A stretch of 64,000 nucleotides of DNA, taken from the NCBI GenBank assembly GCA_036925085.1, contig JAUPFP010000015.1:4740205-4804204 (forward strand), written 5' to 3'. The translations under genes and the position numbers were made by a program. The stretch's first letter is position 1. Each line of letters begins with the position of its first letter. The notes under the pieces are model-generated. The model was not told where the DNA came from. It saw nothing but the letters and a program-made list of their open reading frames with translations, and did not search any database. Source of the stretch: Brachycybe producta (taxonomy: Eukaryota > Arthropoda > Diplopoda > Playtdesmida > Andrognathidae). Shown here one piece after another: positions 2,417 to 22,088 of the stretch.

Positions 2417-2425
2417 TGTAAGTTT

Positions 2426-2460
2426 CCGTTTTCACGGCTATCACAGTGGTGTTCTGTGAT
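2426..2460 (-). promoter_or_regulatory. Paired hairpins at the U5 end of the 3' LTR
   Basis: Two adjacent inverted repeats near the LTR edge: CCGT-tttc-ACGG at 2426-2437 and ATCACAG-(7 nt)-CTGTGAT at 2440-2460. The equivalent copy in the 5' LTR (19642-19676) would place them just before the PBS in genomic RNA, where retroelement leaders often fold. Function is inferred. Confidence 0.45.
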
Positions 2461-2617
2461 TCCCCTTTCAGCCAAATAGTACCTATTGGGTTTAGGGTTC
2501 GACCCTCCCAGCCAATGAAGGCTTATGTAGGGAATGGGTTTTGTAGTTTATCAGTGAGTGGTAGTAATTTTTTAATTTTCTTGGACTGGGCCTAATAAAG
2601 ATAACAAGAGTTGTTAA

Positions 2618-2628
2618 CCTTACCTTAG
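2618..2628 (-). other. U5 splice-donor-like sequence, 3' LTR copy
   Basis: Sense CTAAG|GTAAGG, identical to the candidate donor at 19839 in the 5' LTR. In this LTR it lies downstream of all genes and is probably unused. Confidence 0.3.
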
Positions 2629-2725
2629 ATGGCTTCTTGTTGTCTTCGGAGAATTATAGCTTCGTGAAAACACTTTCCTGGTCTCAGACTCAAAATCCAA
2701 ATTACATGAAAAACCAACTCCTAGG

Positions 2726-2731
2726 TTTATT
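2726..2731 (-). terminator. Candidate polyadenylation signal AATAAA in the 3' LTR
   Basis: TTTATT on the plus strand gives AATAAA in the sense direction. If used, R would end roughly at 2695-2715, leaving a U5 of about 280-300 nt. The choice is tentative: other AATAAA sites exist in this AT-rich LTR and no transcription start could be fixed. Confidence 0.35.
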
Positions 2732-2740
2732 TCTCAAAAC

Positions 2741-3140
2741 ACTTCACAAACTCAACTCAAAACAACTCTAAGTCCAAATGACTTCACAAACTCAATTCAA
2801 AATAATTCTAAGTCTAAATGACTTCACAAACTCAATTCAAAATAATTCTAAATCCAAATGACTTCACAAACTCAATTCAAAATAATTCTAAGTCCAAATG
2901 ACTTCACAAACTCAATTCAAAATAATTCTAAATCCAAATGATTTCACAAACTCAATTCAAAATAATTCTAAGTCTAAATGACTTCACAAACTCAATTCAA
3001 AATAATTCTAAGTCCAAATGACTTCACAAACTCAATTCAAAATAATTCTAAGTCCAAATGACTTCACAAACTCAATTCAAAATAATTCTAAGTCCAAATG
3101 ACTTCACAAACTCAATTCAAAATAATTCTAAGTCCTATTC
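2741..3140 (-). repeat. 40-bp minisatellite inside the 3' LTR, 10 units
   Basis: Ten exact-length 40-bp units, each starting ACTTCACAAACTCAATTCAA in plus orientation. Unit 1 is diverged (CTCAACTCAAAACAACTC). Units 3 and 5 end AAATCCAAATG, unit 6 starts ATTTCAC, and unit 10 runs into CTATTC. The AAATCC variants do not occur in the 5' LTR array. Confidence 0.95.
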
Positions 3141-4261
3141 TTTAAATTTCTTCTAAGTCTCATCCTCTAAATTTCTTCTAAGTTCTTTCTTCTTTCTTTT
3201 TACTAAATCTATAACATATGTCCTCTCTTCTAGAACTCCAATGTAGGACTCCCTCTAGAATACGATGTTCATCGCATCTTGTTTAGTCAGAAATGAATTT
3301 TAAGTATTCTGATTGGTTAGAATTAATTTTCTAAAATTAAAATAACCAATCGGTCAACTGGCTTTTGATCTTCTTCTACGAACATCTGCCTAATATGCAT
3401 CCGGTCGTAAAATTACAATTTGGATTTTTTATAAATTTTTTACGATCGTCGATACATACTGTTATTTCCATTAACCGTCATTTTCTATGAATTAGTATAG
3501 TTAACCTTTTAACTTTTCATCGAAAGTTTTAGTTTTCGGCAACTCATAACATTTCATTTGAATGACTAACATTCCCAATGTTCCTTTATTTGGTTTTCTA
3601 GGCCCTCCGAAATGTATTTCTATTTAAATACGATTTTGGCCCTTTTACCCCTACTCTGTTGAGAACCCTAACATCATACAACTCTTTCGCTACTTGTCGG
3701 TACCTCTTTTGGGTTATGTTTGACTTCACATATTGTTCCATTCATTTCATTATACTCATTCATAAGTTTCCTCTCTATAGTCTTCAATATACTCTATATA
3801 TTATTAACGGCCCTTTTCTTAATGTGTTGAGAACCTGTTATGTGCTTTACTTTTTCTTTTAAACTTTTTATTACTTTGCTGTTTTGCATATTGAAGAGAG
3901 TGTATGGTAAAAAGTATCTTGTTACACTTTTTCCATCCCTTCTTTCTTTTTATTTTTTTTCTATAATGACGTCATAATTATTTGTAAAACAGGTGGTCTT
4001 CTACCGTGTGAGTATGAAGTATAAACCATATGTTTTTCTTCTTTAAGTGTCACATTTAAACTTTTTCATTGTTCAACTTTACTTTTCTCTTATTTTACAC
4101 TCCACTAGGTAATCAGATTATATCAGGTTAATTAACCACTTCATCTATCTATCTATTACACTTTATAGTATGTTTTCCACTCTTTTCATTCTTTAATTAC
4201 ATTTAATTTTGTAAAAAAGTTTTTATTTAACATGGTACACTTATTTGGGCTCACCCTTCTA

Positions 4262-4560
4262 AAGTGTGTGTGGGTGGGTTTAGTCTTTCTATTTCCCCCC
4301 TCTCTTGTTTTCTTTAAAAACTTTTTATTACTTTTTACTTGTGTGGGTGGGTTTCTTTTTTGTTTCCCCCCTTTCTTTGACTTTCTTCTTGCTTCGTCAT
4401 TCTCTTATGGGTGGGTGGGTTTCTTTTACTTTTTTCAGCCTCTCCCTTTTTTGCCTCTGTTTACTATGAGTGTGTGTGTGTGGGTGTGATTCATTCATAC
4501 TTTATCCACCCCCTCTTTTACTACTACTTTCCCGCCATTTTTTATTTCCTCATTTTTTCT
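4262..4560 (-). repeat. Four degenerate GT/G-rich plus pyrimidine blocks in the 3' LTR
   Basis: A loose repeat of about 65-80 bp: a (GT)nGGGTGGGTTT-like head followed by C- and T-rich tracts such as CCCCCCTCTC. Heads lie near 4267, 4341, 4410 and 4469. The sense strand is purine-rich after CACCCAC boxes. The equivalent in the 5' LTR lies near 21643-21936. It could be a U3 regulatory array; no function is demonstrated. Confidence 0.5.
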
Positions 4561-4669
4561 TCTCTTTTTTACTTCTCTTTCATTGTTTCTCTTTCTAGCT
4601 CCGCCTCTTTCTCTTTTTACTTTATTTTAATTTTCTCTTTTACTAATTTCTGCCCCTCTTTCAAATTAT

Positions 4670-4708
4670 TGTTAGGTGTTGCTTTACTTATTTTTTCAAC
4701 ACCTAACA
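4670..4708 (-). repeat. Terminal 12-bp inverted repeat at the LTR edge (3' LTR)
   Basis: TGTTAGGTGTTG (4670-4681) and CAACACCTAACA (4697-4708) are perfect reverse complements around a 15-nt loop. The outer arm is the LTR terminus itself. The same arrangement is at 22046-22084. Confidence 0.85.
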
Positions 4709-6187: not shown

Positions 6188-7774
6188 TTATCTCATTCGC
6201 ATCATGCTGAGCACACATGAAAACACAAAACATGATCCTAATATACTTAGTCCGATCATGAACGGAGCGTAGAACATAGATCCCAAGCTTCCCAAAAAGT
6301 TTGGAAAGATTGATGAGAACGTAAATTCGTCGCCTGGAGAATATCCTCCAACAGATGTAACACGAGCATCGAAAGTTCTTTGAAGATTCAACTGTGGTTC
6401 TTCGAAGCATCCTTCAAATTTCTCGCACGACACTCCAACTCGCGATTGTAAACACACTTTATCGGAAATACATTTTTTACTAATCTGTATCTGTATATCA
6501 TATATTTTGGCACTAGTAGTGAGAGTGAGAGCTCTGGTACTCATAGGTATGTCTTCAAAGGTAATTGTTACTGTTCCTGGAAAACATGTGCTAATTGCTT
6601 CAATTTGCACTACTGCTAATATTGAGCAAGAATAACACCCCTGATGAGCTACTATTCTTAATATACGGGGACACACTCGAACTGTACTTAATATGACCTG
6701 ATAGTTTTCTACTATTAAATGTACTACTGCTGGGCTAGATACAATTAAAGAAGATTTCAATCGGCCTTCTTTGTCAACAAACACTTTATGATTCGTTAAT
6801 GCCATAGGTATTAGATTCCTTTTACTTTGCATCATTAATTCTAGATATGATTGTTGTTTCGTACAAGTCATTCGTGACTCAAAGAAACTACATTCTACCA
6901 TTCTTTTATCAAATAAAAAATCCTTTGATATGGCTTCACCAGCTTGTACATCCCCAATTTGGCCTCTATAGGGTCTTGAGAATTCTGCAGCTGTATCTAA
7001 ATAAGCTTCTGACCCATTCCCATGTTTGATTATCAAATGCTTGGAAATAATATCAGTTGCTTGATCAAAAACTCCAACTACTTCAACATATATTTGATCG
7101 GGCACTTCTTTTGCCGACCGGATTGCATATTTTGTCTCAGTATCATTATTCTTAATAGTCAATATTATTTTAGGGTGACACTTCATACTAGAAATTTTTC
7201 TTACTTCAAATACATTTTTATAATCAGGTTTCAAATACCATCGGAAATGATGACATGGTTGTCTACTGGCAATAAAACATGAAGTTCCAGAATCACCTGG
7301 AAAACAATCTGTTACTCCTGGCCAATCTAAAGCTTCTTTAGTTAACAATTCAAATTTGTAATCTGGGTGACAATGATCTCCCCATCCACAATACTTATTT
7401 TGAGGACATGCAATTTGATTTAAAGTGAATAGCTCGGTTGGAAATGTATAGTATAATCTTTCCGTTCGCCATTCACAATTTACACTTTCAAATCTTATTT
7501 CAACACTTGCAACATAGTTTTCTTGATGATCAGTTAGCCATAAACATGCAGTATACTCTAAATTGGTTAAAGTTACCTGTATTGATGTGGCTAGGGAACA
7601 TTTTTGTCCCTGATTCGTTTCTTGACATTCAGTAATTTGTGATTTTATCATTTCATGTTCTGTGCATTTCGCTTGTGCACTTGAAACCAAACTTAATAAA
7701 AATCTTATCAAAATTATTATAGTAATGACTGTTGGACTCAGGATACTATTTCTTGATAAAGTACCTGTTTCCAA
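6188..7774 (-). CDS. env: Envelope Gc-like glycoprotein (class II fusion type, phlebovirus-like); start unresolved
   Basis: Membrane glycoprotein frame of about 528 residues, resembling the Gc/G2 fusion glycoprotein of phleboviruses and of retroelement envelopes derived from them. Visible: a hydrophobic signal-like segment at about 15-32 ending AQA, a Cys-rich ectodomain with a CGWGDHC loop (129-135) that looks like a class II fusion loop followed by closely spaced Cys, then a C-terminal hydrophobic anchor (about 501-522) and a very short basic tail. The coordinate start is a TTG codon. The first in-frame ATG (7651) lies after the signal segment, so initiation at AUG would lose the signal. 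The frame is open back to 7810 and overlaps the end of the Gn-like frame by 20 nt, one base out of phase. Expression by recoding, by an unseen splice, or loss of function through an indel are all possible. Confidence 0.65.
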   Translation of the reverse strand: METGTLSRNSILSPTVITIIILIRFLLSLVSSAQAKCTEHEMIKSQITECQETNQGQKCSLATSIQVTLTNLEYTACLWLTDHQENYVASVEIRFESVNCEWRTERLYYTFPTELFTLNQIACPQNKYCGWGDHCHPDYKFELLTKEALDWPGVTDCFPGDSGTSCFIASRQPCHHFRWYLKPDYKNVFEVRKISSMKCHPKIILTIKNNDTETKYAIRSAKEVPDQIYVEVVGVFDQATDIISKHLIIKHGNGSEAYLDTAAEFSRPYRGQIGDVQAGEAISKDFLFDKRMVECSFFESRMTCTKQQSYLELMMQSKRNLIPMALTNHKVFVDKEGRLKSSLIVSSPAVVHLIVENYQVILSTVRVCPRILRIVAHQGCYSCSILAVVQIEAISTCFPGTVTITFEDIPMSTRALTLTTSAKIYDIQIQISKKCISDKVCLQSRVGVSCEKFEGCFEEPQLNLQRTFDARVTSVGGYSPGDEFTFSSIFPNFLGSLGSMFYAPFMIGLSILGSCFVFSCVLSMMRMR

Positions 7775-7790
7775 ATCATCATACTTATCT

Positions 7791-8879
7791 TTAACCTTTT
7801 TGACTATTTTTTACGGATCGACCACTAGCGACACCAATAACCATAGATACCTTTAAACACTTTTTTCCCATACGATATATAAACAATGAACACATAATAA
7901 ACCAAGATAATAAATTCCATAATGATTTCAACACTGCTTTGATATATAAAACAACAATACTAGTCATTAACATCAATAATATGATTATAGCATATGTTAG
8001 ATATGTTGGCATACATTGAATATTATAGACAAACTCATAACATAAAACACATTTTAATCTGTGACATATATCTTTACCTTCAATATGGAACTTTCCTTCC
8101 ATCATATGACCTTCTGTGGAAATGAAGATGATATGAAGGGTACCAGATTCCATACCAAATTCAGGATTTATAATAACCTGTTTCTTTTTTCCCACATGTA
8201 AACTTCTTTCTACTCCGTCTTTTCTAATTATAACTGTGCCTTCTGCACTTACTGTTATGACGGGATCATTAAATTTGATGAAGTTTACCCCTTCCTCAAT
8301 TTTGAACGTATCCATTCCCAATAAATTTCGCCCAATACGTTTTCTTTTCCTTCCATATTTTAACTCAGATGTGTTGAAGTAACATTCTCTATAAGATATT
8401 ATTTCAAATCCTTCTGATTCAATACCCTTTTTGTTCACATGTATTAATCTTGTATTTGCTCGAACTATTTCGCAATGACATTCTGTCTTCTTACTTGCGC
8501 ATTTTCTTGTGCTTTTGCAATATTGTTCTGTTCCTGAACAAGTATCATTTTTAGCACAACTACATGGCATTCCTCTATTTTGGCACTTATACATTTCACT
8601 GTTACCATTTGTTTCTTCTGTTTGCTTAACTTGAAATTCTACAGCTGATTCGCTTTTTCCCTCTTTACTTATTAATTTTGTAACCCATTTAACCATACAT
8701 TCTCTGCAACCATTTTGCGGGCACATTTTATCCGAATACGGTTCCGGACTGTTTATAACCGCTTCTTTGCAAACCTTTTCACCTTTCTTCCAATTACAAA
8801 TTTCGATGTCGTAATATTCCTGTCCCGTGACTGCTATCGTCCACAACAGCAAAATTCCAATCATCTTATCGAACGCCAT
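7791..8879 (-). CDS. env: Envelope Gn-like glycoprotein, N-terminal half of the env region
   Basis: 362 residues starting at a good ATG. N-terminal signal peptide (about 5-19, hydrophobic, cleavage near TGQ/E), then a Cys-rich ectodomain with clusters at 28-61 and 99-136. Possible N-glycosylation sites are NDT at 111 and NTS at 169. A strongly basic stretch at 177-181 (RKRKR) is a possible furin-type cleavage site. A transmembrane segment lies at about 293-313, followed by a second hydrophobic stretch at 320-335 and a short basic tail. This order (signal, ectodomain, anchor, tail, then an internal signal in the next frame) is that of a bunyavirus Gn-Gc precursor. Sequence similarity to any known Gn is not something I can assert. 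A splice acceptor 13 nt upstream of the ATG suggests translation from a spliced subgenomic RNA. Confidence 0.6.
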   Translation of the reverse strand: MAFDKMIGILLLWTIAVTGQEYYDIEICNWKKGEKVCKEAVINSPEPYSDKMCPQNGCRECMVKWVTKLISKEGKSESAVEFQVKQTEETNGNSEMYKCQNRGMPCSCAKNDTCSGTEQYCKSTRKCASKKTECHCEIVRANTRLIHVNKKGIESEGFEIISYRECYFNTSELKYGRKRKRIGRNLLGMDTFKIEEGVNFIKFNDPVITVSAEGTVIIRKDGVERSLHVGKKKQVIINPEFGMESGTLHIIFISTEGHMMEGKFHIEGKDICHRLKCVLCYEFVYNIQCMPTYLTYAIIILLMLMTSIVVLYIKAVLKSLWNLLSWFIMCSLFIYRMGKKCLKVSMVIGVASGRSVKNSQKG

Positions 8880-8891
8880 TTCTTCCTTTTA

Positions 8892-8908
8892 TCTGAAATA
8901 AACAAACT
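8892..8908 (-). other. Candidate splice acceptor for env mRNA
   Basis: The sense strand reads GTTTGTTTATTTCAG|ATAAAAG with the AG at 8894-8893. A pyrimidine-rich tract ending in CAG lies 13 nt before the env ATG, which fits a spliced env message as in other envelope-bearing gypsy elements. Confidence 0.6.
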
Positions 8909-9759: not shown

Positions 9760-12700
9760 TTATTTCTTACTCATTCTTTCTATCACACTTACTAATTTAA
9801 ACATCTTGTCTAACAATTGTCCTGCTACATTATCTTCTGGCTCTTCTTGACCAGTTTTTCTAGTATCTTCTTCAACTATAGAATCCTGTTCACTCTGAAT
9901 TTCTTCTTCTGATGCACTAATTTCTTGGGATTCCGAAATACTTGGAGGATGTCTATCTTCCTCTTGGGTATCCCTAGAATTTCCTTTATTCAATATCTCT
10001 TGCAACTTTTTACGTAACCTTGCTAAACTCAAATCTCCTTCATCTTCAGATTCGCCTGGTTCAACTCTAGGTGGATCTGGTAGTCTAGGTAATACTTCTG
10101 TCCTAGGTGTAATTCTTCTTGTTCTTACTGGTAATGGCGTAGCAAACTGTATGGAACCTTTACTTCGTAAATTATAACCACTAGTACTGGGTACGGCTTC
10201 TGTGTTCCGAATAATTCCCTTAGGTGTCTTAGTATTTACTGTAGGTACCTTTTCACAACAATAATCAATTTTATCTGCATTGTCTTCATCATCTTCATCT
10301 GAACTTGAATTACTCGATTCACTAGGCCTTTTGCCTTTTCTGCTTTGTTCTTTAGGTTCTTTCACCTTTTCTGTACAGTCCTCAATCTTTTCCCATGGAT
10401 TTTTTCCTTTTACTACTCTTAATCTCTCTTCATGAACTATTTGTACATCTTTGTGTCTATACATGTGCTTTATCTCAAAATTAACAGGTGATGTTTGTCT
10501 AATGACTCGATAAGGACCTTTGTTCAACTTCGCTAATTTTTTTGTTTTACCTTGTGCTACTTGTGGTACATTCAAATATACTTTTTCACCTACTTGTATT
10601 CCTTTATTTTTTCTTTTCTTTCCTTGATATCTAATTTGATTTTCAGCTGATTTTTCTAAACTCTCTTTTGCTATATCATGTATCTTTTGCATCCTATTTG
10701 CCACTACCTTTCCATAGTCTTCAGTGTTGTACACTGGCTGAGGTTCATCTCCTATTAAATCAAATGGTAAATTCATATCCTGTCCAAACAATAAAAAATA
10801 AGGTGTCTCCTTAGTGCTTGAATGCATCGCACTACGATATGCCATCAATACTAATGGAAGTTCCTCATCCCAATTTCTTTGTGAACTATCAACATAATGT
10901 GATAACATTGTTGTTAGTGTCCTGTTGAATCTCTCAACTAAACCATCTGTTTGCGGGTGATATGCTGACGTAAAAATCTTTTTAATTCCGAATGTCTCAC
11001 ACAGACTTTTCATAAGTTCAGACATAAAGTTTGCACCTCTGTCTGTTATTAGAGTCTGGGGACTACCATACCGTGAAATAATTTCTCTTACTAACAAATT
11101 TGCAATGGTTTCAGCTTTCTGATCTGGAATAGCAAATGCTTCTGGGTATCTTGTTAGATAATCACAAATAACTACAATGTATTTATTTCCATTCTGTGTA
11201 GTAGGTAAAGGACCTAGTATATCCATTCCAATTCTTTCAAATGGTTTGGATGGTGCTGGGAACTTACATAATGGACTTTTCCCATGTGGAATCTTTTTCT
11301 GATTACACGATACACAAGCTTCACAATATTGTTTCACATCTTTCTTTAAAGTTTCCCAATAAAATCTGTCTGCAACTTTGCTTGTTGTTTTTTCAATACC
11401 AAAATGACCTGCTGTAATATTATCATGACACATTTTCAACACATAATTTCTTTTACTCAAAGGGACTACAGTTCTTAATTTATTTTCGGATCTTTTTACT
11501 AACCAACCTTTTGTATTTAATTCTAAACCCAACTTATCAACTTTTTCTTTTACCTTTTTATCTACTGGACAACCATATAAACATTCCATGAAAGATTTCA
11601 ATTCTTCGCAATTTTCTTGATCTTTAGCAACCTCATGTTCTTCCCAAGTTTCTTGTTCATTTAACACATTTAATTCTTTACTTTCTACAGGATTTCGACT
11701 CAAAGCATCTGCATTAGTATTCTCTTTACCTTTTCTATATAAAACCTCAAAATCATATTGTTGTAACTGTAATGCCCATCTAGTTAACATAGCTTTATCT
11801 TTTTTCATAGTCATCAAGTATTTTAATGGTTGATGATCTGTGATAAGAGTAAACTTTCTTCCCATCAAGTAATATCGAAAATAATTTACACCATAAACAC
11901 ATGCTAATGCCTCTTTCCATGTCGTAGAATAATTTTGTTCTGATTTGGTGAGCTTCCTACTCGCATAAGATATTGGGTGTAATTGACCGTCAATCTTTTG
12001 TTCGAGGATTGCCCCGATTGCTTCATTACTTGCATCCGTAGTCAAATAAAATGGTCTTTCAAAATTTGGCATTATCAAAACTGGATATGTAATCAAACAT
12101 CCTTTTAATTTCTGAAAAGATTCTTCACAGTCTTTTGTCCAAAGAAATGGAGTATCTTTACTTAACAACTTTGTTAATGGACCTGCTAAACTTGCACAAT
12201 TTGGAATAAATTTTCTATAAAAGTTTACTAATCCCACAAAACTTTGTATTTTCTTGACACTTGTTGGTCTCGGAAAATTTTCTACTGCTTCTACTTTCTT
12301 TCCACCTGGTTGGAATTTCCCTTGTGTAAATGTATGTCCTAGATAGTTTATTTCCTTCTGTAGGAACAAACATTTTGTTGGTTTTGCTTTTAAGTTTGCA
12401 TTTCTAAGTCGCTCAAACACTAAATTTAACCTTTCATAATGTTCCTCTATAGTTTTACTGTATACAATAATATCATCCATGTAAACAAAACAAATTTTCC
12501 CTTTCAAATCACCTAATACATTATCCATAAGTCTCTGATATACACTTGGAGATGTTTTTAGTCCCATTGGACATCTGTTGAATTCATAGTGTCCAAAAGG
12601 TGTACTAAAACCTGTTTTTGCTTTATCTTCTTCTGTTATGGGAATCTGGTAAAAACCACTTGCCATGTCTAAAGTAGAAAAATAAACAGCTTCTCCTAAT

Positions 12701-13572
12701 TGATTACTTACTCCCAAAAGCTCTGGTAATGGATATTTATCACTAACAACCTTTAAATTCAATGCTCGATAATCAACAACTAATCTTTGACTCCCATCTG
12801 GTTTTCCTATAAGCATGCACGGTGCTGAGTAAGGACTTAACGATGGTCTAATTATTCCTGCATCTAATAACTCATCAATTTTCTCTTTCATAACTTCTTC
12901 TGATTTCTGTGGCAACTTGTATGGTCGTATAAAAACTGGAACTTGATCCACCATGTGGATTTCTTGTTCAACAACAGGTGTCGGTTTCAGTTCTTTAAGT
13001 GAACCTGCAAATATATCATCATTTTTCTCCAAAAATTTTCTTAATTGATTCTGATTCTCTGTCTCCGTTTTACTTACTACTTCTAATATCCATTCTTTAT
13101 CTCCCTTTTTCTGCAACATATTAATCATTTCATTTTTCTCTAAACTTCTTGTCTTAATTTTCATCCCATTATAACCAATTACATCAAGCAAGGGTTCATA
13201 TGTTAATCCTAACTGCTTTATCACATCTATGCCGAAAATCATCTGATATTTCTTTGGCAAATCTTCTGCACTCACGTATAAAGGAACCTTTTCCACTTTC
13301 TCTGCTGTAATACGTACGGGTATTTCATATAATCCCTTTGTACGAAACGGTGTACCATTCGCTGTGGTAATTATAACCTTAGCTTGATCAGTGATAGGCT
13401 TTATGTCTCGTGCTTTCCGTCCTTTTATCTTTTCAAATAAGGATTTGGAAATTATCGATATTCCTGCTCCTGTGTCGTATAGAATCTTTATCAGATTGTT
13501 TTTTGACTGAGCTAAAAAGATAGGACATGTTGTGTCATTCAGAATGTTTAATGTGACGCGGTTTTCATACAT
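9760..13572 (-). CDS. pol: Pol polyprotein: protease, reverse transcriptase, RNase H, integrase
   Basis: 1270 residues, intact. Protease with DTGA at 33-36. RT with LDMASGFYQI at 301-310 and the catalytic YMDD at 364-367. RNase H with TTDAS near 511-515, TDH at 578-580 and ADALSR near 621-626. Integrase with a zinc-binding H716/H723 and C753/C756 (or C750/C753), then D784, D844 and E880, giving the D-x35-E spacing of retroelement integrases. A GPY/F-like module (KGPYRVI) follows, then a tail of roughly 200 disordered, acidic and Ser-rich residues; I see no chromodomain. The ATG is 38 nt after the gag stop, but the frame is open back to 13623 and is -1 relative to gag, so a Gag-Pol fusion by frameshifting is as likely as reinitiation. 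The order PR-RT-RH-IN defines Ty3/gypsy. Confidence 0.97.
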   Translation of the reverse strand: MYENRVTLNILNDTTCPIFLAQSKNNLIKILYDTGAGISIISKSLFEKIKGRKARDIKPITDQAKVIITTANGTPFRTKGLYEIPVRITAEKVEKVPLYVSAEDLPKKYQMIFGIDVIKQLGLTYEPLLDVIGYNGMKIKTRSLEKNEMINMLQKKGDKEWILEVVSKTETENQNQLRKFLEKNDDIFAGSLKELKPTPVVEQEIHMVDQVPVFIRPYKLPQKSEEVMKEKIDELLDAGIIRPSLSPYSAPCMLIGKPDGSQRLVVDYRALNLKVVSDKYPLPELLGVSNQLGEAVYFSTLDMASGFYQIPITEEDKAKTGFSTPFGHYEFNRCPMGLKTSPSVYQRLMDNVLGDLKGKICFVYMDDIIVYSKTIEEHYERLNLVFERLRNANLKAKPTKCLFLQKEINYLGHTFTQGKFQPGGKKVEAVENFPRPTSVKKIQSFVGLVNFYRKFIPNCASLAGPLTKLLSKDTPFLWTKDCEESFQKLKGCLITYPVLIMPNFERPFYLTTDASNEAIGAILEQKIDGQLHPISYASRKLTKSEQNYSTTWKEALACVYGVNYFRYYLMGRKFTLITDHQPLKYLMTMKKDKAMLTRWALQLQQYDFEVLYRKGKENTNADALSRNPVESKELNVLNEQETWEEHEVAKDQENCEELKSFMECLYGCPVDKKVKEKVDKLGLELNTKGWLVKRSENKLRTVVPLSKRNYVLKMCHDNITAGHFGIEKTTSKVADRFYWETLKKDVKQYCEACVSCNQKKIPHGKSPLCKFPAPSKPFERIGMDILGPLPTTQNGNKYIVVICDYLTRYPEAFAIPDQKAETIANLLVREIISRYGSPQTLITDRGANFMSELMKSLCETFGIKKIFTSAYHPQTDGLVERFNRTLTTMLSHYVDSSQRNWDEELPLVLMAYRSAMHSSTKETPYFLLFGQDMNLPFDLIGDEPQPVYNTEDYGKVVANRMQKIHDIAKESLEKSAENQIRYQGKKRKNKGIQVGEKVYLNVPQVAQGKTKKLAKLNKGPYRVIRQTSPVNFEIKHMYRHKDVQIVHEERLRVVKGKNPWEKIEDCTEKVKEPKEQSRKGKRPSESSNSSSDEDDEDNADKIDYCCEKVPTVNTKTPKGIIRNTEAVPSTSGYNLRSKGSIQFATPLPVRTRRITPRTEVLPRLPDPPRVEPGESEDEGDLSLARLRKKLQEILNKGNSRDTQEEDRHPPSISESQEISASEEEIQSEQDSIVEEDTRKTGQEEPEDNVAGQLLDKMFKLVSVIERMSKK

Positions 13573-13610
13573 TCTCCCCCATTGACGCGTTCTATTCTTT
13601 GAAGGAGTTT

Positions 13611-13623
13611 CTAGTTTTCCGCC
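13611..13623 (-). other. Gag-Pol overlap and possible -1 frameshift site
   Basis: The pol frame opens right after an in-frame TAG at 13626-13624 and overlaps gag for 13 nt up to the gag TAG stop. Within it the gag codons read GAA AAC TAG preceded by G. The A-site part (AAAC) fits a -1 slip but the P-site part (GGA) is not a canonical heptamer. Reinitiation at 13572 is hindered by another ATG at 13585 that opens a 6-codon frame across it. Confidence 0.45.
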
Positions 13624-14822: not shown

Positions 14823-14853
14823 CTAATTTCCAAACAACTTTTAATTTTAATCT

Positions 14854-15153
14854 TTAATCTTCCCCTTCTAAGTCTCTTTGTACGAAAAAATCTATTCTTT
14901 CCTGTGTTTTTGCGGGGTGACCTAAGCGGGACAAATACTCATTAAAATCTATCAATTCTCTAACTGCTTTTTCATATGAACATGCAACTCTCCCAAATGC
15001 TATCTCTGGGTAATTTCTTTTATCAAAATGCCTATAATGTGTAACACACTTCCACCTATAATCTTGTCTATGATGGTGACACTGTGTTTTGAAACAATTT
15101 TTTAGTTCAGGACACCTATAAATCTTATCTTGATCATTAAAATTCTCGCTCAT
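14854..15153 (-). CDS. Accessory Cys/His protein C2 (type C), unknown function
   Basis: 99 residues. One finger-like motif: C14-x5-C20-x15-C36-x2-H39, followed by F and a NYPEIAFGR segment. An extra C/HHH cluster sits inside the loop. The tail is predicted helical and acidic (ends DLEGED). It closely matches C1 (16890-17180) in layout: both have W-K-C before the C-x2-H, the (D/N)YP-(E/F)-(I/V)A-(F/L)GR segment and an (E/F)-rich helix with E-Y. It is the last ORF before gag, with a 31-nt gap. I do not recognise the family; metal binding is inferred from the conserved Cys/His spacing only. Confidence 0.75.
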   Translation of the reverse strand: MSENFNDQDKIYRCPELKNCFKTQCHHHRQDYRWKCVTHYRHFDKRNYPEIAFGRVACSYEKAVRELIDFNEYLSRLGHPAKTQERIDFFVQRDLEGED

Positions 15154-15186
15154 TATTCTAAATTATTTTCTGACAATAAAACTTCT

Positions 15187-15423
15187 TTATCTAAATCGGT
15201 CAATATCTATTTCTGACTCTATGGAATATTCATCTAATTCATGCAATAATTCATTTAATGAGGTTAACAACTGTTTAACACGAAGCCAAAGTTCATATTC
15301 TTCTACTTGAAAAGCTCTATGATGTGTGAGACACACATAAATGTTCTCTATTTCTGTTAAATCAACAATATCACAACTAAACCTTAAGGGACACCATGGT
15401 AATAATTCTAAATCAACACTCAT
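15187..15423 (-). CDS. Accessory Cys/His protein A3 (type A), unknown function
   Basis: 78 residues. Starts with a short acidic leader then LPWCPLR; motif C11-x5-C17-x13-C31-x2-H34, followed by RAF..EEYE-W and a leucine-rich helix (LLTSLNELLHEL). It is a paralogue of A1 and A2, sharing LPWCP(L/I)R, the D/I-rich loop, (T)H.R.F and EY..W. The upstream gap to B2 is 42 nt and the downstream gap to C2 is 33 nt. The A3-C2 pair repeats the A1-C1 pair upstream. Function unknown. Confidence 0.75.
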   Translation of the reverse strand: MSVDLELLPWCPLRFSCDIVDLTEIENIYVCLTHHRAFQVEEYELWLRVKQLLTSLNELLHELDEYSIESEIDIDRFR

Positions 15424-15465
15424 TTTATTAAGAATTCAAACAAACACGCTTTTTTCCTTTATTTT

Positions 15466-15825
15466 TTATACTCCCAAATGTTCATTAAATATCTTTTGAT
15501 GAACTGCACATTGATACTGTTTAGGCCAAGTTTTTGGTGAAATTAAGACAAAAAAGCATTCGTCATGCAATGGACAATGATTACCAATTCTATCTGTTAA
15601 TAACTGAAGTTCTTCTAAGGGACTTTTACACTTAGTCTCAAAAATTACTCTGTTTACATTTGGATTTATACCACACATGTATAGATACTCAGGAAATGCA
15701 AAATTTACGTTGTGGACTTCGCATGTTACAAATTCTTGAAAATCTTCGTGTACTATACTACAACTTTTCCCAAAAGGACATCTATTGGCGTCTCGTTCCT
15801 TTTTCCTTTGTATGCTTAAATCCAT
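15466..15825 (-). CDS. Accessory Cys/His protein B2 (type B, two fingers), unknown function
   Basis: 119 residues with two motifs: C16-x5-C22-x12-C35-x2-H38 and C84-x5-C90-x15-C106-x2-H109. A basic leader (QRKKERDANR) precedes the first. The region between has Y-MCG and an EELQLL helix. It has the same length and finger placement as B1 (16114-16473), so the two are tandem paralogues despite low identity. It begins 59 nt after A2, the largest gap in the cluster. Function unknown. Confidence 0.75.
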   Translation of the reverse strand: MDLSIQRKKERDANRCPFGKSCSIVHEDFQEFVTCEVHNVNFAFPEYLYMCGINPNVNRVIFETKCKSPLEELQLLTDRIGNHCPLHDECFFVLISPKTWPKQYQCAVHQKIFNEHLGV

Positions 15826-15884
15826 ACCCTTTAAATATCACTCATTAATAAACCATAATATTTTCTGTCTATAACTAGAATTCT

Positions 15885-16106
15885 TTATACACTTTCTTCT
15901 TCTATTCTTATGAAAAAGCTATATATATCTTGCAATAGTTCACCTAGTGTTGTCAATAATGTTCTAACTTGAAGCCAATTTTCGTATTCTTCTATCTGAA
16001 AAGCCCTTTGGTGTGTAAAGCAAGCATATGTGTTATCTATGTTTCTTCTATCAATTATTACACAATTAAGTCTTATAGGACACCATGGTAATACATTTAA
16101 GTCCAT
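15885..16106 (-). CDS. Accessory Cys/His protein A2 (type A), unknown function
   Basis: 73 residues. LPWCPIR then C9-x5-C15-x13-C29-x2-H32, RAFQIEEYE-W and a leucine-rich helix, ending EEESV. It is closest to A3, sharing the HxRAFQ(I/V)EEYE-W core. The ATG is only 7 nt after the B1 stop. Unrecognised family; zinc binding inferred. Confidence 0.75.
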   Translation of the reverse strand: MDLNVLPWCPIRLNCVIIDRRNIDNTYACFTHQRAFQIEEYENWLQVRTLLTTLGELLQDIYSFFIRIEEESV

Positions 16107-16113
16107 ACCCCTT

Positions 16114-16473
16114 TTACATACGGATTACGTTAAAAAGAGTATTAATTACTGTTCCGTGTATAATGCACTGGAATTCCCTTGGAGCTTCGTTTTGTGTGAT
16201 GGCTACAAAGGCACAATTCCTAGCATAAGGACACGATTCCCATCTACTTATAATTATTCTTCGAATGTCTTCCTCAGTGTCTTGATCAGTACAATCAACA
16301 ACAGCTTGTATCGGGAAATAACCTTGATTAGCACACCTGTATACGTAATCTGCAGGTAAATACCAGAATTTATGGGTGAGGCATTCAATCCGTCCTATAG
16401 ATCGATGAAACTTAGTAATACAATCTGGTCCTATGGGGCACTGTAACCTATTCGTTTGATAATCCTCACTCAT
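16114..16473 (-). CDS. Accessory Cys/His protein B1 (type B, two fingers), unknown function
   Basis: 119 residues. First motif C12-x5-C18-x12-C31-x2-H34 with QCPIGPDC and W-YLP-DYVYRC after it; second motif C81-x5-C87-x15-C103-x2-H106. Between them is an acidic, Cys-containing linker. The first finger strongly resembles B'2 (QCPIGPYC...GR(I/V)-C). The ATG is 10 nt after the B'2 stop and the stop is 7 nt before A2. The B1-A2 pair is repeated downstream as B2-A3. Confidence 0.75.
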   Translation of the reverse strand: MSEDYQTNRLQCPIGPDCITKFHRSIGRIECLTHKFWYLPADYVYRCANQGYFPIQAVVDCTDQDTEEDIRRIIISRWESCPYARNCAFVAITQNEAPREFQCIIHGTVINTLFNVIRM

Positions 16474-16483
16474 ACTAAATATC

Positions 16484-16693
16484 TTAACTTTCTTTCTTTT
16501 CCTCTTCCTTTATTACCTTCAACTTCAAATTACTTGTCTCTTTAATTATAATTTTCTCTGGGATTTTTTCTGTCTGATACCAGGTATCATGTACAAAACA
16601 CTTAACTCGACCACTTTCTCGAAAAAATCTTACAATGCAATAAGGACCTATTGGGCACTGTGGTATGTTCCTACTAGTGTCTTCTAAGTTCAT
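16484..16693 (-). CDS. Accessory Cys/His protein B'2 (single finger), unknown function
   Basis: 69 residues. Motif C13-x5-C19-x12-C32-x2-H35, then a lysine/glutamate-rich tail ending EEEKKES. Its finger is very like the first finger of B1, but the second finger is absent, so it may be a C-terminally truncated B-type copy with a new charged tail. Its ATG lies inside the end of B'1 (20-nt overlap). Confidence 0.65.
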   Translation of the reverse strand: MNLEDTSRNIPQCPIGPYCIVRFFRESGRVKCFVHDTWYQTEKIPEKIIIKETSNLKLKVIKEEEKKES

Positions 16694-16874
16694 GCTTTTT
16701 TACTGATAAAATTTCCAACTTATCTTTCAAGTCACGATTACTTTGAATGTATTCAGTTTGAAAATGATTAAGATGACAAACACACTTCACCAAATTATCT
16801 CTTTTCTTTATAATAAAAACACAATTTAAACTAAATGGACAAGTTATACTTACTAAAGATTTTTTTCTACACAT
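16674..16874 (-). CDS. Accessory Cys/His protein B'1 (single finger), unknown function
   Basis: 66 residues. Motif C12-x5-C18-x12-C31-x2-H34 (ITCPFSLNC...KCVCH) followed by HF-TEY and a basic/charged helix. Loop length places it with the B-type first fingers. It starts 15 nt after C1 and its last 20 nt overlap the start of B'2. Confidence 0.65.
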   Translation of the reverse strand: MCRKKSLVSITCPFSLNCVFIIKKRDNLVKCVCHLNHFQTEYIQSNRDLKDKLEILSVKKHELRRH

Positions 16875-16889
16875 AATCTTTACTTCTTC

Positions 16890-17180
16890 TCAATTCCTGC
16901 TATTGAAAAAGTTTTTGATTTCAACCAGATTTGGATGTATGATAAATTGTCCAATATATTCACAAAATTCACTATATTCTATACTTGCTTCTAAATTGTT
17001 TGATCCAGGTCTTCCTAGTGCAACAAATGGGTAATCTCTAATATCAAACAGGTAATTGTGGCTCATACACTTCCACATATATGAATTGTCTGAGAAATCT
17101 GGAGCTCTGAAACAAATATTACTATAAGGGCATACAAAATCATTGGTTGAGGATACCTCGTATTCATCCACAAAACTCAT
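16890..17180 (-). CDS. Accessory Cys/His protein C1 (type C), unknown function
   Basis: 96 residues. Motif C17-x5-C23-x14-C38-x2-H41 followed by LF-IRDYPFVALGR and a Glu/Tyr/Phe helix (EYSEFCEYI). It is a paralogue of C2. Its ATG overlaps the A1 stop as ATGA (17177-17180), the classic arrangement for coupled termination-reinitiation. Function unknown. Confidence 0.75.
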   Translation of the reverse strand: MSFVDEYEVSSTNDFVCPYSNICFRAPDFSDNSYMWKCMSHNYLFDIRDYPFVALGRPGSNNLEASIEYSEFCEYIGQFIIHPNLVEIKNFFNSRN

Positions 17181-17416
17181 ATTTCAAATCCTACAAAATC
17201 AGTGGAATATCCATCTAATATCTGCCATAAATCGTGGACGGAAACAATTAATTCTTTAGCATTCATCCAAATATTATATTCGGCACCCTCAAATGTTCTC
17301 AAATGTGTAGTACATACAAAAATAACATCAATGTCACTCAAGTCAATGATATTACACTCTGGTCTTAATGGGCACCAGGGTAATATGCAAATGTCCTGCA
17401 ACATGCACTCATCCAT
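17177..17416 (-). CDS. Accessory Cys/His protein A1 (type A), unknown function
   Basis: 79 residues from the ATG at 17416; an in-frame TTG two codons earlier is not needed. Motif C15-x5-C21-x13-C35-x2-H38 in the LPWCPLR context, followed by R-F-GAEYN-W and a helix (ELIVSVHDLWQIL). It is the first Cys/His ORF in sense order, 36 nt after the proline-rich ORF, and overlaps C1 by ATGA. It is a paralogue of A2 and A3. Confidence 0.75.
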   Translation of the reverse strand: MDECMLQDICILPWCPLRPECNIIDLSDIDVIFVCTTHLRTFEGAEYNIWMNAKELIVSVHDLWQILDGYSTDFVGFEI

Positions 17417-17452
17417 AAACAAATTTTCTTAACCTTACATATATAATCACCT

Positions 17453-17872
17453 TTAAACGTGATATGGCAATCCGTCGTCTGCCAATCGTTCGTCCTGTGG
17501 CTCCGGTGGTTCTCTTTCCACGGGAGACGAAGGAGGTGCGATGAAACCAGCAAGATCCGATCTCACGTTAAAGATTGGAGTTCCGTGAAGATAAAATTGT
17601 GCCACTCCACTCTCCAAAAAATGTACCGGACTTGGTATCGGACTTGGTATTGAACTCGGTGTTGGGCTCACCGGAGACGGCAAGCTAAATCGTACCGACT
17701 GGTAACCCGCCAACGGTCTTAGGTTAGCCAAGAGTAAGTGATACGCTAATTCCGCCTCGTCGATGAATCTTTCTCGTCGCTCTCGGTACTCTTCCTCCGT
17801 TATAATTCTAGGGGAAACTCTGCACACTGGCTTAAAATTGTTCAGTTTACGGTCTTCTGGTGCTTCGGCCAT
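17453..17872 (-). CDS. Proline-rich ORF, first gene of the element, unknown function
   Basis: 139 residues from an ATG (17872). The N-terminal 60 residues are charged and helical (EEEYRERRERFIDEAELAYH), the middle is a Ser-Pro repeat region (PSPVSPTPSSIPSPIPSPV at about 76-94), and the C-terminus is acidic and Pro-rich (PPSSPVEREPPEPQDE). It lacks the Cys/His finger of the following ORFs. The stretch is visibly GC-richer than the AT-rich element around it. A splice-acceptor-like CTCTTTTCCAG lies just before the ATG. It could be a captured host segment or an old element gene; I cannot tell which. Confidence 0.6.
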   Translation of the reverse strand: MAEAPEDRKLNNFKPVCRVSPRIITEEEYRERRERFIDEAELAYHLLLANLRPLAGYQSVRFSLPSPVSPTPSSIPSPIPSPVHFLESGVAQFYLHGTPIFNVRSDLAGFIAPPSSPVEREPPEPQDERLADDGLPYHV

Positions 17873-17874
17873 AA

Positions 17875-17890
17875 CCTGGAAAAGAGCATT
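17875..17890 (-). other. Candidate splice acceptor before the first ORF
   Basis: The sense strand reads CTCTTTTCCAG|GTTATGG with the AG at 17877-17876, three bases before the proline-rich ORF's ATG. Joined to the LTR donor at 19839 it would remove the PBS and leader from a message for the accessory cluster. Confidence 0.45.
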
Positions 17891-18225
17891 ATTACGATTC
17901 TTTCATCCCCCCAAACACTCTAATAAGGCCCATTAATCGATTACCTAATTAATCAATTAATTACTTTATGCGCAATTATGTATGCAATTTTGTATGGGAG
18001 CGTGCGTATGTGTGTTGGGAGCAAATCTTAAAAACAAGTACAATACAAAAACAATTTGCAAAACAATTGAAACAAAACAACTCAGGCAATATGACTTAAT
18101 TTAATCATGCACTTAATAGGCCACTTAATATCTTTTAGGACCCCCAAAAATCTTGATCAAAATCAATAATAATGTACTCAACATATCCACTCACAACAAC
18201 AATATGGGTAAACCTAAGAATCTTC

Positions 18226-18257
<32 letters not shown>

Positions 18258-19609: not shown

Positions 19610-19627
19610 ATCCTGTCGACTGCGCCA
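19610..19627 (-). promoter_or_regulatory. Primer binding site, tRNA-Ser-like
   Basis: The sense strand reads TGGCGCAGTCGACAGGAT, five bases (AAAAG) after the 5' LTR terminus CTTACA. It starts with TGG (complement of CCA), and GCGCAGTCG fits the acceptor stem of animal serine tRNAs with a G discriminator. Several Drosophila gypsy-group elements use tRNA-Ser. The inner bases (ACAGG) differ from the serine isoacceptors I know, so the exact tRNA is uncertain. Confidence 0.75.
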
Positions 19628-19641
19628 CTTTTTGTAAGTTT

Positions 19642-19676
19642 CCGTTTTCACGGCTATCACAGTGGTGTTCTGTGAT
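19642..19676 (-). promoter_or_regulatory. Paired hairpins between U5 end and PBS
   Basis: Same inverted repeats as at 2426-2460 (CCGT/ACGG and ATCACAG/CTGTGAT). Here they would form about 15-50 nt upstream of the PBS in genomic RNA, a position where reverse-transcription initiation structures are common. Confidence 0.45.
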
Positions 19677-19833
19677 TCCCCTTTCAGCCAAATAGTACCT
19701 ATTGGGTTTAGGGTTCGACCCTCCCAGCCAATGAAGGCTTATGTAGGGAATGGGTTTTGTAGTTTATCAGTGAGTGGTAGTAATTTTTTAATTTTCTTGG
19801 ACTGGGCCTAATAAAGATAACAAGAGTTGTTAA

Positions 19834-19844
19834 CCTTACCTTAG
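19834..19844 (-). other. Candidate splice donor in U5
   Basis: The sense strand reads CTAAG|GTAAGG with the intron starting at 19839, a near-consensus donor located after the AATAAA signal and before the PBS. It could pair with acceptors at 17876 and 8893. Confidence 0.45.
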
Positions 19845-19956
19845 ATGGCTTCTTGTTGTCTTCGGAGAATTATAGCTTCGTGAAAACACTTTCCTGGTCT
19901 CAGACTCAAAATCCAAATTACATGAAAAACCAACTCCTAGGTTTATTTCTCAAAAC

Positions 19957-20516
19957 ACTTCACAAACTCAACTCAAAACAACTCTAAGTCCAAATGACTT
20001 CACAAACTCAATTCAAAATAATTCTAAGTCTAAATGACTTCACAAACTCAATTCAAAATAATTCTAAGTCCAAATGACTTCACAAACTCAATTCAAAATA
20101 ATTCTAAGTCTAAATGACTTCACAAACTGAATTCAAAATAATTCTAAGTCCAAATGACTTCACAAACTCAATTCAAAATAATTCTAAGTCTAAATGACTT
20201 CACAAACTCAATTCAAAATAATTCTAAGTCCAAATGACTTCACAAACTCAATTCAAAATAATTCTAAGTCTAAATGACTTCACAAACTGAATTCAAAATA
20301 ATTCTAAGTCTAAATGATTTCACAAACTCAATTCAAAATAATTCTAAGTCTAAATGACTTCACAAACTCAATTCAAAATAATTCTAAGTCCAAATGACTT
20401 CACAAACTCAATTCAAAATAATTCTAAGTCCAAATGACTTCACAAACTCAATTCAAAATAATTCTAAGTCCAAATGACTTCACAAACTCAATTCAAAATA
20501 ATTCTAAGTCCTATTC
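19957..20516 (-). repeat. 40-bp minisatellite inside the 5' LTR, 14 units
   Basis: Fourteen 40-bp units. Units 5 and 9 carry ACTGAATTC (absent from the left array), and unit 10 starts ATTTCAC like left unit 6. Units 10-14 therefore align with left units 6-10, while units 1-9 differ from left units 1-5 in number and variants. Confidence 0.95.
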
Positions 20517-21637
20517 TTTAAATTTCTTCTAAGTCTCATCCTCTAAATTTCTTCTAAGTTCTTTCTTCTTTCTTTTTACTAAATCTATAACATATGTCCT
20601 CTCTTCTAGAACTCCAATGTAGGACTCCCTCTAGAATACGATGTTCATCGCATCTTGTTTAGTCAGAAATGAATTTTAAGTATTCTGATTGGTTAGAATT
20701 AATTTTCTAAAATTAAAATAACCAATCGGTCAACTGGCTTTTGATCTTCTTCTACGAACATCTGCCTAATATGCATCCGGTCGTAAAATTACAATTTGGA
20801 TTTTTTATAAATTTTTTACGATCGTCGATACATACTGTTATTTCCATTAACCGTCATTTTCTATGAATTAGTATAGTTAACCTTTTAACTTTTCATCGAA
20901 AGTTTTAGTTTTCGGCAACTCATAACATTTCATTTGAATGACTAACATTCCCAATGTTCCTTTATTTGGTTTTCTAGGCCCTCCGAAATGTATTTCTATT
21001 TAAATACGATTTTGGCCCTTTTACCCCTACTCTGTTGAGAACCCTAACATCATACAACTCTTTCGCTACTTGTCGGTACCTCTTTTGGGTTATGTTTGAC
21101 TTCACATATTGTTCCATTCATTTCATTATACTCATTCATAAGTTTCCTCTCTATAGTCTTCAATATACTCTATATATTATTAACGGCCCTTTTCTTAATG
21201 TGTTGAGAACCTGTTATGTGCTTTACTTTTTCTTTTAAACTTTTTATTACTTTGCTGTTTTGCATATTGAAGAGAGTGTATGGTAAAAAGTATCTTGTTA
21301 CACTTTTTCCATCCCTTCTTTCTTTTTATTTTTTTTCTATAATGACGTCATAATTATTTGTAAAACAGGTGGTCTTCTACCGTGTGAGTATGAAGTATAA
21401 ACCATATGTTTTTCTTCTTTAAGTGTCACATTTAAACTTTTTCATTGTTCAACTTTACTTTTCTCTTATTTTACACTCCACTAGGTAATCAGATTATATC
21501 AGGTTAATTAACCACTTCATCTATCTATCTATTACACTTTATAGTATGTTTTCCACTCTTTTCATTCTTTAATTACATTTAATTTTGTAAAAAAGTTTTT
21601 ATTTAACATGGTACACTTATTTGGGCTCACCCTTCTA

Positions 21638-21940
21638 AAGTGTGTGTGGGTGGGTTTAGTCTTTCTATTTCCCCCCTCTCTTGTTTTCTTTAAAAACTTT
21701 TTATTACTTTTTACTTGTGTGGGTGGGTTTCTTTTTTGTTTCCCCCCTTTCTTTGACTTTCTTCTTGCTTCGTCATTCTCTTATGGGTGGGTGGGTTTCT
21801 TTTACTTTTTTCAGCCTCTCCCTTTTTTGCCTCTGTTTACTATGAGTGTGTGTGTGTGGGTGTGATTCATTCATACTTTATCCACCCCCTCTTTTACTAC
21901 TACTTTCCCGCCATTTTTTATTTCCTCATTTTTTCTTCTC
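21638..21940 (-). repeat. GT/G-rich plus pyrimidine blocks in the 5' LTR
   Basis: Same four degenerate blocks as at 4262-4560, here in the likely U3 of the functional promoter LTR. Confidence 0.5.
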
Positions 21941-22045
21941 TTTTTTACTTCTCTTTCATTGTTTCTCTTTCTAGCTCCGCCTCTTTCTCTTTTTACTTTA
22001 TTTTAATTTTCTCTTTTACTAATTTCTGCCCCTCTTTCAAATTAT

Positions 22046-22084
22046 TGTTAGGTGTTGCTTTACTTATTTTTTCAACACCTAACA
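22046..22084 (-). repeat. Terminal 12-bp inverted repeat at the LTR edge (5' LTR)
   Basis: TGTTAGGTGTTG at 22046-22057 and CAACACCTAACA at 22073-22084, perfect arms around 15 nt. The outer arm is the LTR end next to the target duplication. Confidence 0.85.
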
Positions 22085-22088
22085 TAAA
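22085..22088. repeat. Target-site duplication, right copy (TAAA)
   Basis: TAAA immediately after the LTR terminus, continuing into the satellite as TAAATGAGCAAGC at monomer offset 98, in perfect phase with the next monomer at 22171. Confidence 0.9.

Follow-up and report, generated by a model that had tools for sequence, protein, structure and literature searches.

We were curious to see what surrounds a run of small Cys/His-containing reading frames in a 64,000-nt stretch of the Brachycybe producta genome (contig JAUPFP010000015.1, positions 4,740,205 to 4,804,204; hereafter the window). The run belongs to a Ty3/gypsy provirus, where it separates leader from gag; the provirus also has phlebovirus-type Gn/Gc env ORFs. 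Read in the direction of the element, its features are as follows (window positions; E-values from Pfam).

19633..22084, minus strand: 5' LTR, ~2.45 kb, with a 40-bp tandem array
19610..19627, minus strand: primer-binding-site-like stretch immediately internal to the 5' LTR, read by eye
17453..17872, minus strand: leader ORF, 139 aa, proline-rich, without the finger motif
17177..17416, minus strand: accessory ORF, class C, 79 aa, acidic
16890..17180, minus strand: accessory ORF, class A, 96 aa
16674..16874, minus strand: accessory ORF, class D, 66 aa, basic
16484..16693, minus strand: accessory ORF, class E, 69 aa, similar to the first half of class B
16114..16473, minus strand: accessory ORF, class B, 119 aa, two fingers
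15885..16106, minus strand: accessory ORF, class C, 73 aa
15466..15825, minus strand: accessory ORF, class B, 119 aa, two fingers
15187..15423, minus strand: accessory ORF, class C, 78 aa
14854..15153, minus strand: accessory ORF, class A, 99 aa
13611..14822, minus strand: gag, 403 aa, CCHC knuckles (zf-CCHC 5.2e-14; Retrotrans_gag 6.4e-4, below cut-off)
9760..13572, minus strand: pol, 1270 aa, protease/RT/RNase H/integrase (RVT_1 8.2e-36, RNase H 1.7e-38, rve 5.4e-13)
7791..8879, minus strand: Gn-like env ORF, 362 aa (Phlebovirus_G1 6.1e-5, below cut-off)
6188..7774, minus strand: Gc-like env ORF, 528 aa (Phlebovirus_G2 1.9e-30)
2417..4708, minus strand: 3' LTR, ~2.29 kb

The two LTRs differ by 9 mismatches in 1969 aligned bp (99.5% identity) and by the copy number of the 40-bp array. 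They are flanked by TAAA at 2413-2416 and 22085-22088, which reads as a 4-bp target-site duplication; the insertion site is a 183-bp satellite array. The primer-binding-site-like stretch may be of the tRNA-Ser type. All pol domains scored over their cut-offs except the protease, which fell just under (gag-asp_proteas, 4.7e-6, 27.5 bits against 28.2). As in Metaviridae, LTRs with a short target duplication are combined with the order PR-RT-RNase H-integrase and an envelope gene. The Gc open frame spans 899-900 aa in ten 99%-identical copies, a length that could accommodate Gn too, whereas it spans 540 aa in the window copy, where the env frame therefore seems interrupted. By hand count, 17 of 18 copies of at least 93% identity had a Gc match on the same strand ~7.6-8.1 kb downstream. 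The window holds a recently inserted env-bearing Ty3/gypsy element. Errantiviruses and insect endogenous retroviruses have a gag-pol-env Ty3/gypsy layout, a 4-bp target duplication and a baculovirus-type Env. The window element resembles this group in the layout and the target duplication (described in part in PMC12992720), but it differs from it in its phlebovirus-type Gn/Gc, its LTRs of >2.2 kb and its large upstream cassette.

The first-pass annotation had described nine ORFs of 66-119 aa with the pattern C-x5-C-x(12-15)-C-x2-H, and we recovered the same nine, all on the minus strand across 14854-17416 and all starting with ATG. Its total of eleven motifs was reproduced, with two in each 119-aa ORF. 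The CP it had called usual at the first Cys is present in 11 of 11 motifs, and the aromatic residue four positions after the His in 10 of 11 (the exception, an Ile, is in the second motif of ORF 16114-16473). The DNA is AT-rich with many short ORFs. Ten ORFs of at least 60 aa were observed, nine with the motif, against a mean of 0.7 per shuffle in 1000 mononucleotide shuffles of the region, and no shuffle produced a motif-bearing ORF of that length. Across the window and four related elements (L015, L017, L019 and L046), 36 motifs had a middle spacing of 10-17, counted with a pattern that demanded CP-x4-C...C-x2-H and is hence blind to exceptions. The first motif of ORF 4049 in L017, spotted by eye, is CP-x3-C.

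For each ORF the predicted product is a small zinc protein, whose one or two sites have the form C-x5-C-x(10-17)-C-x2-H. The finger had been called unrecognised, and searches of Pfam, NCBIfam and PDB sequences indeed returned no convincing match. The CCCH spacing (C-x8-C-x5-C-x3-H) does not occur in the window ORFs; the best CCCH-type Pfam match among 35 fingers was 0.0041 in one member, and the class D protein of L046 gave a weak half-match to Nab2-type CCCH (E = 0.014, below cut-off). Profile searches with the finger ORFs gave no match to a DNA-binding family above cut-off. HIV Vif, which has an HCCH zinc motif, and further accessory proteins of lentiviruses are likewise small with an unusual zinc site, but their ligand order and spacing differ from those of the window ORFs. 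Two AlphaFold2 models built from only two or three window sequences were poor (mean pLDDT 54.5 and 57.7) and too weak to bear out a coherent metal site, and fold searches with them gave no match at E<=0.001. An IMG/VR match to class C (L063) was rejected as antisense to phage ORFs.

The proposal that these ORFs form one family holds for classes A, B and C, the classes covered by our hhalign comparison of single pairs (A2-A1, E = 1.3e-5, probability 80; A3-A1, 2.4e-5, 76; A2-A3, 1.9e-4, 48). All four ligands of each aligned finger are invariant across element lineages in three class alignments, with a mean column identity of 44%-50%. The suggestion of purifying selection was borne out: dN/dS (omega) between copies was 0.21-0.48 for the finger ORFs over 11 pairs (p<0.05 in 10 of 11), away from the ratio near 1 that had been named as evidence against it. 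These pairs, from matches of at least 70% identity, were retained from the 21 of a first run that mixed paralogues, the rest being dropped; most between-lineage pairs are saturated for dN/dS. Omega was 0.04-0.41 for gag (the eight pairs with a gag comparison) and 0.09, 0.06 and 0.16 for the leader ORF against L032, L023 and L024. Tests on class D alone (p=0.12), on a C+A fusion (46 codons; p=0.31) and on the L018 pair (p=0.10) were not significant. The nine ORFs are genes maintained by purifying selection.

An absence of related ORFs from sibling elements, the other outcome named in advance as adverse, was likewise not seen. Beyond the window family, six further lineages in the same 295-Mb genome (L013/14, L015/16, L017/18/20/22/30, L019, L026 and L046, by our own sorting) have related cassettes. 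The finger family has duplicated, diverged and fused within a modular leader-gag cassette, and related lineages have other sets. In two of five env-bearing relatives that we opened (L042/L048 and L043/L049), the stretches read contained no cassette ORF, so that the cassette is dispensable or lost there. In the gag tree, where row L048 forms a long branch, one branch of eight is well supported. Non-finger ORFs adjoining the cassette in L017 and L019 have basic KKRR/AKRKR ends.

The cassette may be expressed from a polycistronic RNA. Several of its ORFs overlap or almost touch (in the window, the overlaps of two pairs measure 4 and 20 nt). Of four elements inspected, three have a possible splice acceptor directly ahead of the leader ORF, and in the window a YAG stands 3 nt upstream of the leader ATG. 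Strong acceptor-like sites were not enriched near ORF starts (1/5 in the window, 1/7 in L015, 0/1 in L017 and 0/9 in L019).

Other env-bearing lineages (L047, L058 and L060-L062) have a GTSF1-like ORF in the cassette slot. GTSF1/Asterix is a CHHC double zinc finger protein and PIWI cofactor (PMC9539491 and PMC9385479, each in part), and the element ORFs are like it in having CPx4(H/C)...Hx3C (5/5) and ED/EN-W motifs (EDWDKE in 2/5), but they have no clear second GTSF1 finger. The L047 finger is CPx4Hx10Hx3C; the other four alignment members have Cys for the first His. Mouse GTSF1 (6x46) was the top PDB match of the L047 ORF, with E = 1.3e-5 as a single sequence and 0.0018 as a profile (0.57 for a second GTSF1 chain, 9nhb). 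The similarity of L047-type ORFs extends into the tryptophan region, where W98/W107/W112 of GTSF1 bind PIWI (PMC9385479, in part): in EDWDKDLWEQ, the first tryptophan is aligned in L047 and the second is replaced by Gln, the numbers W107/W112 being assigned from spacing. The Pfam CHHC model (PF05253) did not match the element ORFs; it had seven matches across the host genome, none at these ORFs, of which three were over cut-off (C24 twice, C9), and the C24 reading frame looks like the host GTSF1. An IMG/VR search with the GTSF1-like alignment gave no match.

Among the loci scanned, no element combined a clear GTSF1-like gene with finger ORFs; CPWNxxC...Hx3C leader ORFs (L015/L019) and 'ERDWDLQ' ORFs (L017/L019) are only suggestive of such a gene beside fingers. 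Derivation of the finger family from CHHC/GTSF1 was considered and rejected for lack of profile support (hhalign probability 1.8-5.8). The GTSF1/U11-48K CHHC finger (CPx4Hx9Hx3C) is found in none of the nine window ORFs, whose second pair is C-x2-H.

A Bcl-2-like gene stands among the fingers in two cassette lineages and recurs in Maverick-like DNA elements of this genome. The L017 ORF matched Pfam Bcl-2 (PF00452) at 1.9e-5, its 25.6 bits lying below the gathering cut-off of 31.4, and a Maverick relative (L057) scored 42.6 bits. The L017 ORF has an alignment to Bcl-2/Bcl-xL in PDB that covers the BH1-BH2 region (E = 0.0023) and has in addition a hydrophobic C-terminal anchor (hydropathy 2.48 at residue 137); pooled omega for the Bcl-2-like ORF was 0.22. 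In contrast to the viral and host Bcl-2 family, the L017 gene sits in an LTR element and its relatives in Maverick-like DNA elements.

The statement in the first-pass annotation that Ty3/gypsy elements have few or no genes before gag needs correction. In the Drosophila MDG1 group (412, mdg1, Stalker2, Tabor and Blood), two small accessory ORFs, sORF1 and sORF2, precede gag, are under selection and have detected peptides, and full-length transcripts are not spliced (PMC11952523, in part). The window element is like that group in having selected small ORFs between leader and gag, but the MDG1 group has two such ORFs and no Env (same source, in part), whereas the window element has nine paralogues of one finger family and a Gn/Gc env. 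None of the nine has the central transmembrane helix of an MDG1-type sORF2 (a FAST-like fusogen): the maximum 19-residue Kyte-Doolittle mean was 0.28-1.27. Small pre-gag ORFs were thus already known (PMC11952523, in part), and what is new here is an unusually rich version. At the level of titles and abstract openings, our literature searches turned up no transposon that bears either a GTSF1-like gene or a zinc cassette of nine genes.

What might the finger proteins do? We put at about one in two the probability that they are a selected cassette of predicted zinc proteins with a host-directed, counter-defence role. In related elements this slot is occupied by a GTSF1-like gene or, interspersed with the fingers, by one resembling Bcl-2, from which we infer that the finger proteins would act in trans on the host cell and not as virion structural proteins; these siblings give indirect support for a role against host silencing. 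The slot is most likely a counter-defence or regulatory cassette, whose finger proteins would most likely dampen silencing in the germline, cell death or further host defences. Lentiviral accessory proteins, which counter host defences, offer a comparison. Because no homology between the GTSF1-like and finger families was detectable, the argument is solely one of position and association. It is possible, but doubtful, that the proteins instead assist the genomic RNA of the element itself (in its export from the nucleus, its packaging, its translation or its reverse transcription), like CERV of Cer1 and Rev-type factors. Small zinc proteins often bind RNA, the cassette adjoins gag, class D was basic in 4/4 tested, and the Nab2-type half-match points the same way; CERV, required for gRNA nuclear export of Cer1 (PMC10309623, in part), is a precedent. 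However, class C was acidic in 6/6 and class A acidic or neutral in 5/5 tested, and such differing charges make one common RNA-coating role unlikely. Moreover, gag already has zinc knuckles, two of the five relatives have no cassette in the stretches read, and several paralogues with lineage turnover suit arms-race genes better than a single RNA chaperone.

That the proteins regulate transcription or chromatin, of the host or of the element, from within the nucleus, like subnuclear sORF1 of the MDG1 group, is unlikely: the position is the same (PMC11952523, in part), and zinc fingers and the basic ends of neighboring L017/L019 ORFs would suit it, but no DNA-binding family was matched above cut-off. 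The least probable reading is one of drifting duplicates or non-coding by-products whose Cys pattern arose by chance; AT-rich DNA full of short ORFs and the class D test lend it something. The shuffles, the invariant ligands and omega values well under 1 speak against it, and over the pooled copy pairs omega refutes it for classes A, B, C and E.

Extending the counter-defence reading, we tentatively suggest that in a clade of infectious-type Ty3/gypsy viruses the pre-gag slot might be a gene-capture site. Captured GTSF1 would poison or divert PIWI-piRNA silencing, Maverick-derived Bcl-2 would block the suicide of infected germ cells, and home-grown zinc proteins, up to nine per element, would have taken over such roles in the window lineage. 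The Bcl-2-like gene common to this retroelement group and Maverick-like elements suggests that genes have passed between two classes of integrated virus that are not related. Should the GTSF1-like and zinc proteins act on PIWI silencing, they would offer a direct way into the question of whether transposons of animals code for proteins that antagonise the piRNA pathway.

The finger ORFs, small accessory genes with the motif C-x5-C-x(12-15)-C-x2-H, belong to one LTR element:

2417-22084, minus strand: single LTR element, flanked by a 4-bp TAAA duplication

The element is a recent insertion, as its LTRs differ at just nine of 1969 aligned bp (longest aligned piece); both LTRs contain 40-bp arrays, in unequal copy number. 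The insertion site is a 183-bp satellite array, which has a longer-period pattern at 1-2416 and from 22085 to at least 28000 (to the right of 28000, the satellite is visible in the composition profile only). From the 5' LTR, the order is a leader ORF (139 aa), nine finger ORFs, gag with zinc knuckles, pol (protease, RT, RNase H, and integrase), a Gn-like env ORF (Phlebovirus_G1 match of 6.1e-5, below cut-off), and a Gc-like env ORF (Phlebovirus_G2, 1.9e-30). The env frame of this copy seems to be broken between Gn and Gc (window 6188-8879), because its Gc open frame spans 540 aa versus 899-900 aa in ten 99%-identical copies.

The nine ORFs and eleven motifs upstream of gag all matched the first-pass annotation, and 1000 shuffles of the region yielded zero motif-bearing ORFs of 60 aa or more. 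We sorted the ORFs by sequence and length into class A (∼100 aa), class B (∼119 aa, two fingers), class C (∼73 aa), class D (short and basic), and class E (half of B); classes A, B, and C were linked to each other by hhalign. The family, reported at first pass as unrecognised, remains so: profiles and single ORFs had no convincing match in Pfam, NCBIfam, or PDB sequences, the lowest PDB values being 0.046, between the class A profile and a ribosomal protein, and 0.18, between the finger profile and half of the mex-5 CCCH finger. A literature search of titles and abstract openings returned no report of the family, which may be described elsewhere.

Related ORFs in sibling elements, set as a check on the family, were found in several divergent lineages of the same genome. 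Searching the genome (295.3 Mb, 442 contigs) with one class-B ORF gave 73 matches, of which 18 had at least 93% identity and were all stop-free; by hand count, 17 of these 18 have a same-strand Gc match ∼7.6-8.1 kb downstream, the exception being C1:12322955. Similar arrays of finger ORFs (cassettes) occur at divergent loci of this genome (L015/L016, L017 and kin, L019, L013/L014, L026, and L046), with five finger ORFs in L015, seven in L017 and kin, only two in L046, and six in L019, including a 200-aa fusion of classes C and A (L019:3620-4222).

The finger ORFs are genes under selection. Nei-Gojobori counts on copy pairs (matches with at least 70% identity) gave dN/dS values of 0.34, 0.36, 0.25, and 0.31 for the window against L032, L023, L024, and L031; 0.45 for L015-L016; 0.35, 0.31, 0.31, and 0.21 for L017 against L018, L020, L022, and L030; and 0.48 and 0.26 for L019 against L028 and L029. 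The proposed purifying selection was thus borne out (0.21-0.48, P < 0.05 in 10 of 11 pairs; L018, P = 0.10). Values pooled over non-independent pairs were 0.19 for class C, 0.35 for A, 0.36 for B, 0.43 for E, 0.47 for D (P = 0.12), 0.47 for the C+A fusion (46 codons, P = 0.31), and 0.19 for gag. Several compared copies are damaged by stops, which should push dN/dS up, so the values are conservative.

Related elements carry other genes in the slot between leader and gag. Env-bearing relatives with Gc ∼50%-57% identical have an ORF of 136-153 aa:

L047:135-596: putative GTSF1-like ORF; also in L058, L060, L061, and L062

It immediately precedes gag in both elements whose gag was read (L047 and L050/L062) and has 47 matches in the genome. 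In PDB it matches mouse GTSF1 best, at 1.3e-5 with L047 and 0.0018 with the alignment; a second GTSF1 chain scored 0.57 against the alignment. One CHHC-type finger is kept (CPx4H in L047 and CPx4C in the remaining four), with E(N/D)WExE in all five ORFs and EDWDKE in two. As the Pfam CHHC model gives no match, we name these ORFs GTSF1-like with moderate confidence. GTSF1 function is reported to require finger 1 for RNA binding and W98/W107/W112 for PIWI binding (PMC9385479). Among five env-bearing relatives examined around the expected slot position (four over an extended stretch), one has finger ORFs (L046), two have the GTSF1-like ORF only, and two have neither; in one of the latter (L048), gag is damaged. 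Leader ORFs L015:2465-2806 and L019:2263-2949 carry CPWNxxC...Hx3C, a pattern similar to the CCHC form of the GTSF1-like finger. ORFs L017:3760-4041 and L019:4737-5171 share ERDWDLQ and a basic C-terminus, and are possibly a remnant of the GTSF1-like C-terminal part.

Amid the finger ORFs of L017-type elements and the L026 lineage lies a further gene:

L017:3040-3513: Bcl-2-like ORF within the LTR-element cassette; also in L018, L020, L022, L026, and L030

Its dN/dS is 0.22 (pooled over L017 pairs), and it has at least 150 genome matches. The four match sites examined (L054-L057) look like Maverick/Polinton-like DNA elements: two ORFs downstream, L054 and L057 encode an ATPase that matches Pox_A32 and Adeno_IVa2, L056 has an ORF resembling it by eye, and L055 has the same neighbour ORFs and stops short of the ATPase. 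L056 also carries two Bcl-2-like genes in tandem. In a small tree, rooted at midpoint only, five retroelement copies cluster (85/92) and nest in a branch that also includes three Maverick copies (92/91). This favours, not decisively, transfer from Maverick to retroelement. Adintoviruses carry Bcl-2-like genes; a literature search listed 12 papers, of which none mentioned both.

The finger ORFs probably bind zinc, given their invariant ligands. The suggested coherent metal site was not confirmed by structure prediction: two models from window sequences were poor and neither had a fold match at E ≤ 0.001. Class C is acidic (six of six tested) and class D basic (four of four), and this variation in charge suggests different partners. 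The leader-ORF start has a YAG no more than 3 nt away in the window, L015, and L019, and none in L017; strong acceptor-like sites were not enriched before the remaining ORFs of these four. ORFs overlap by 4-74 nt in cassettes, and our guess is that downstream ORFs would be translated by re-initiation or leaky scanning.

Like the window element, the Drosophila MDG1 group is reported to have small selected ORFs before gag, two in number, with peptides detected and one a FAST-like fusogen (PMC11952523). Additional captured ORFs, in the position of an ORF3, are reported in rotifer LTR elements (PMC5408684). Titles and abstract openings returned by our literature search mentioned no LTR element with a GTSF1-like or Bcl-2-like gene. 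TART elements reportedly target the piRNA machinery (title of PMC7785250). Judging by the company they keep in the slot of related elements, the finger proteins may serve as a trans-acting counter-defence against the host.
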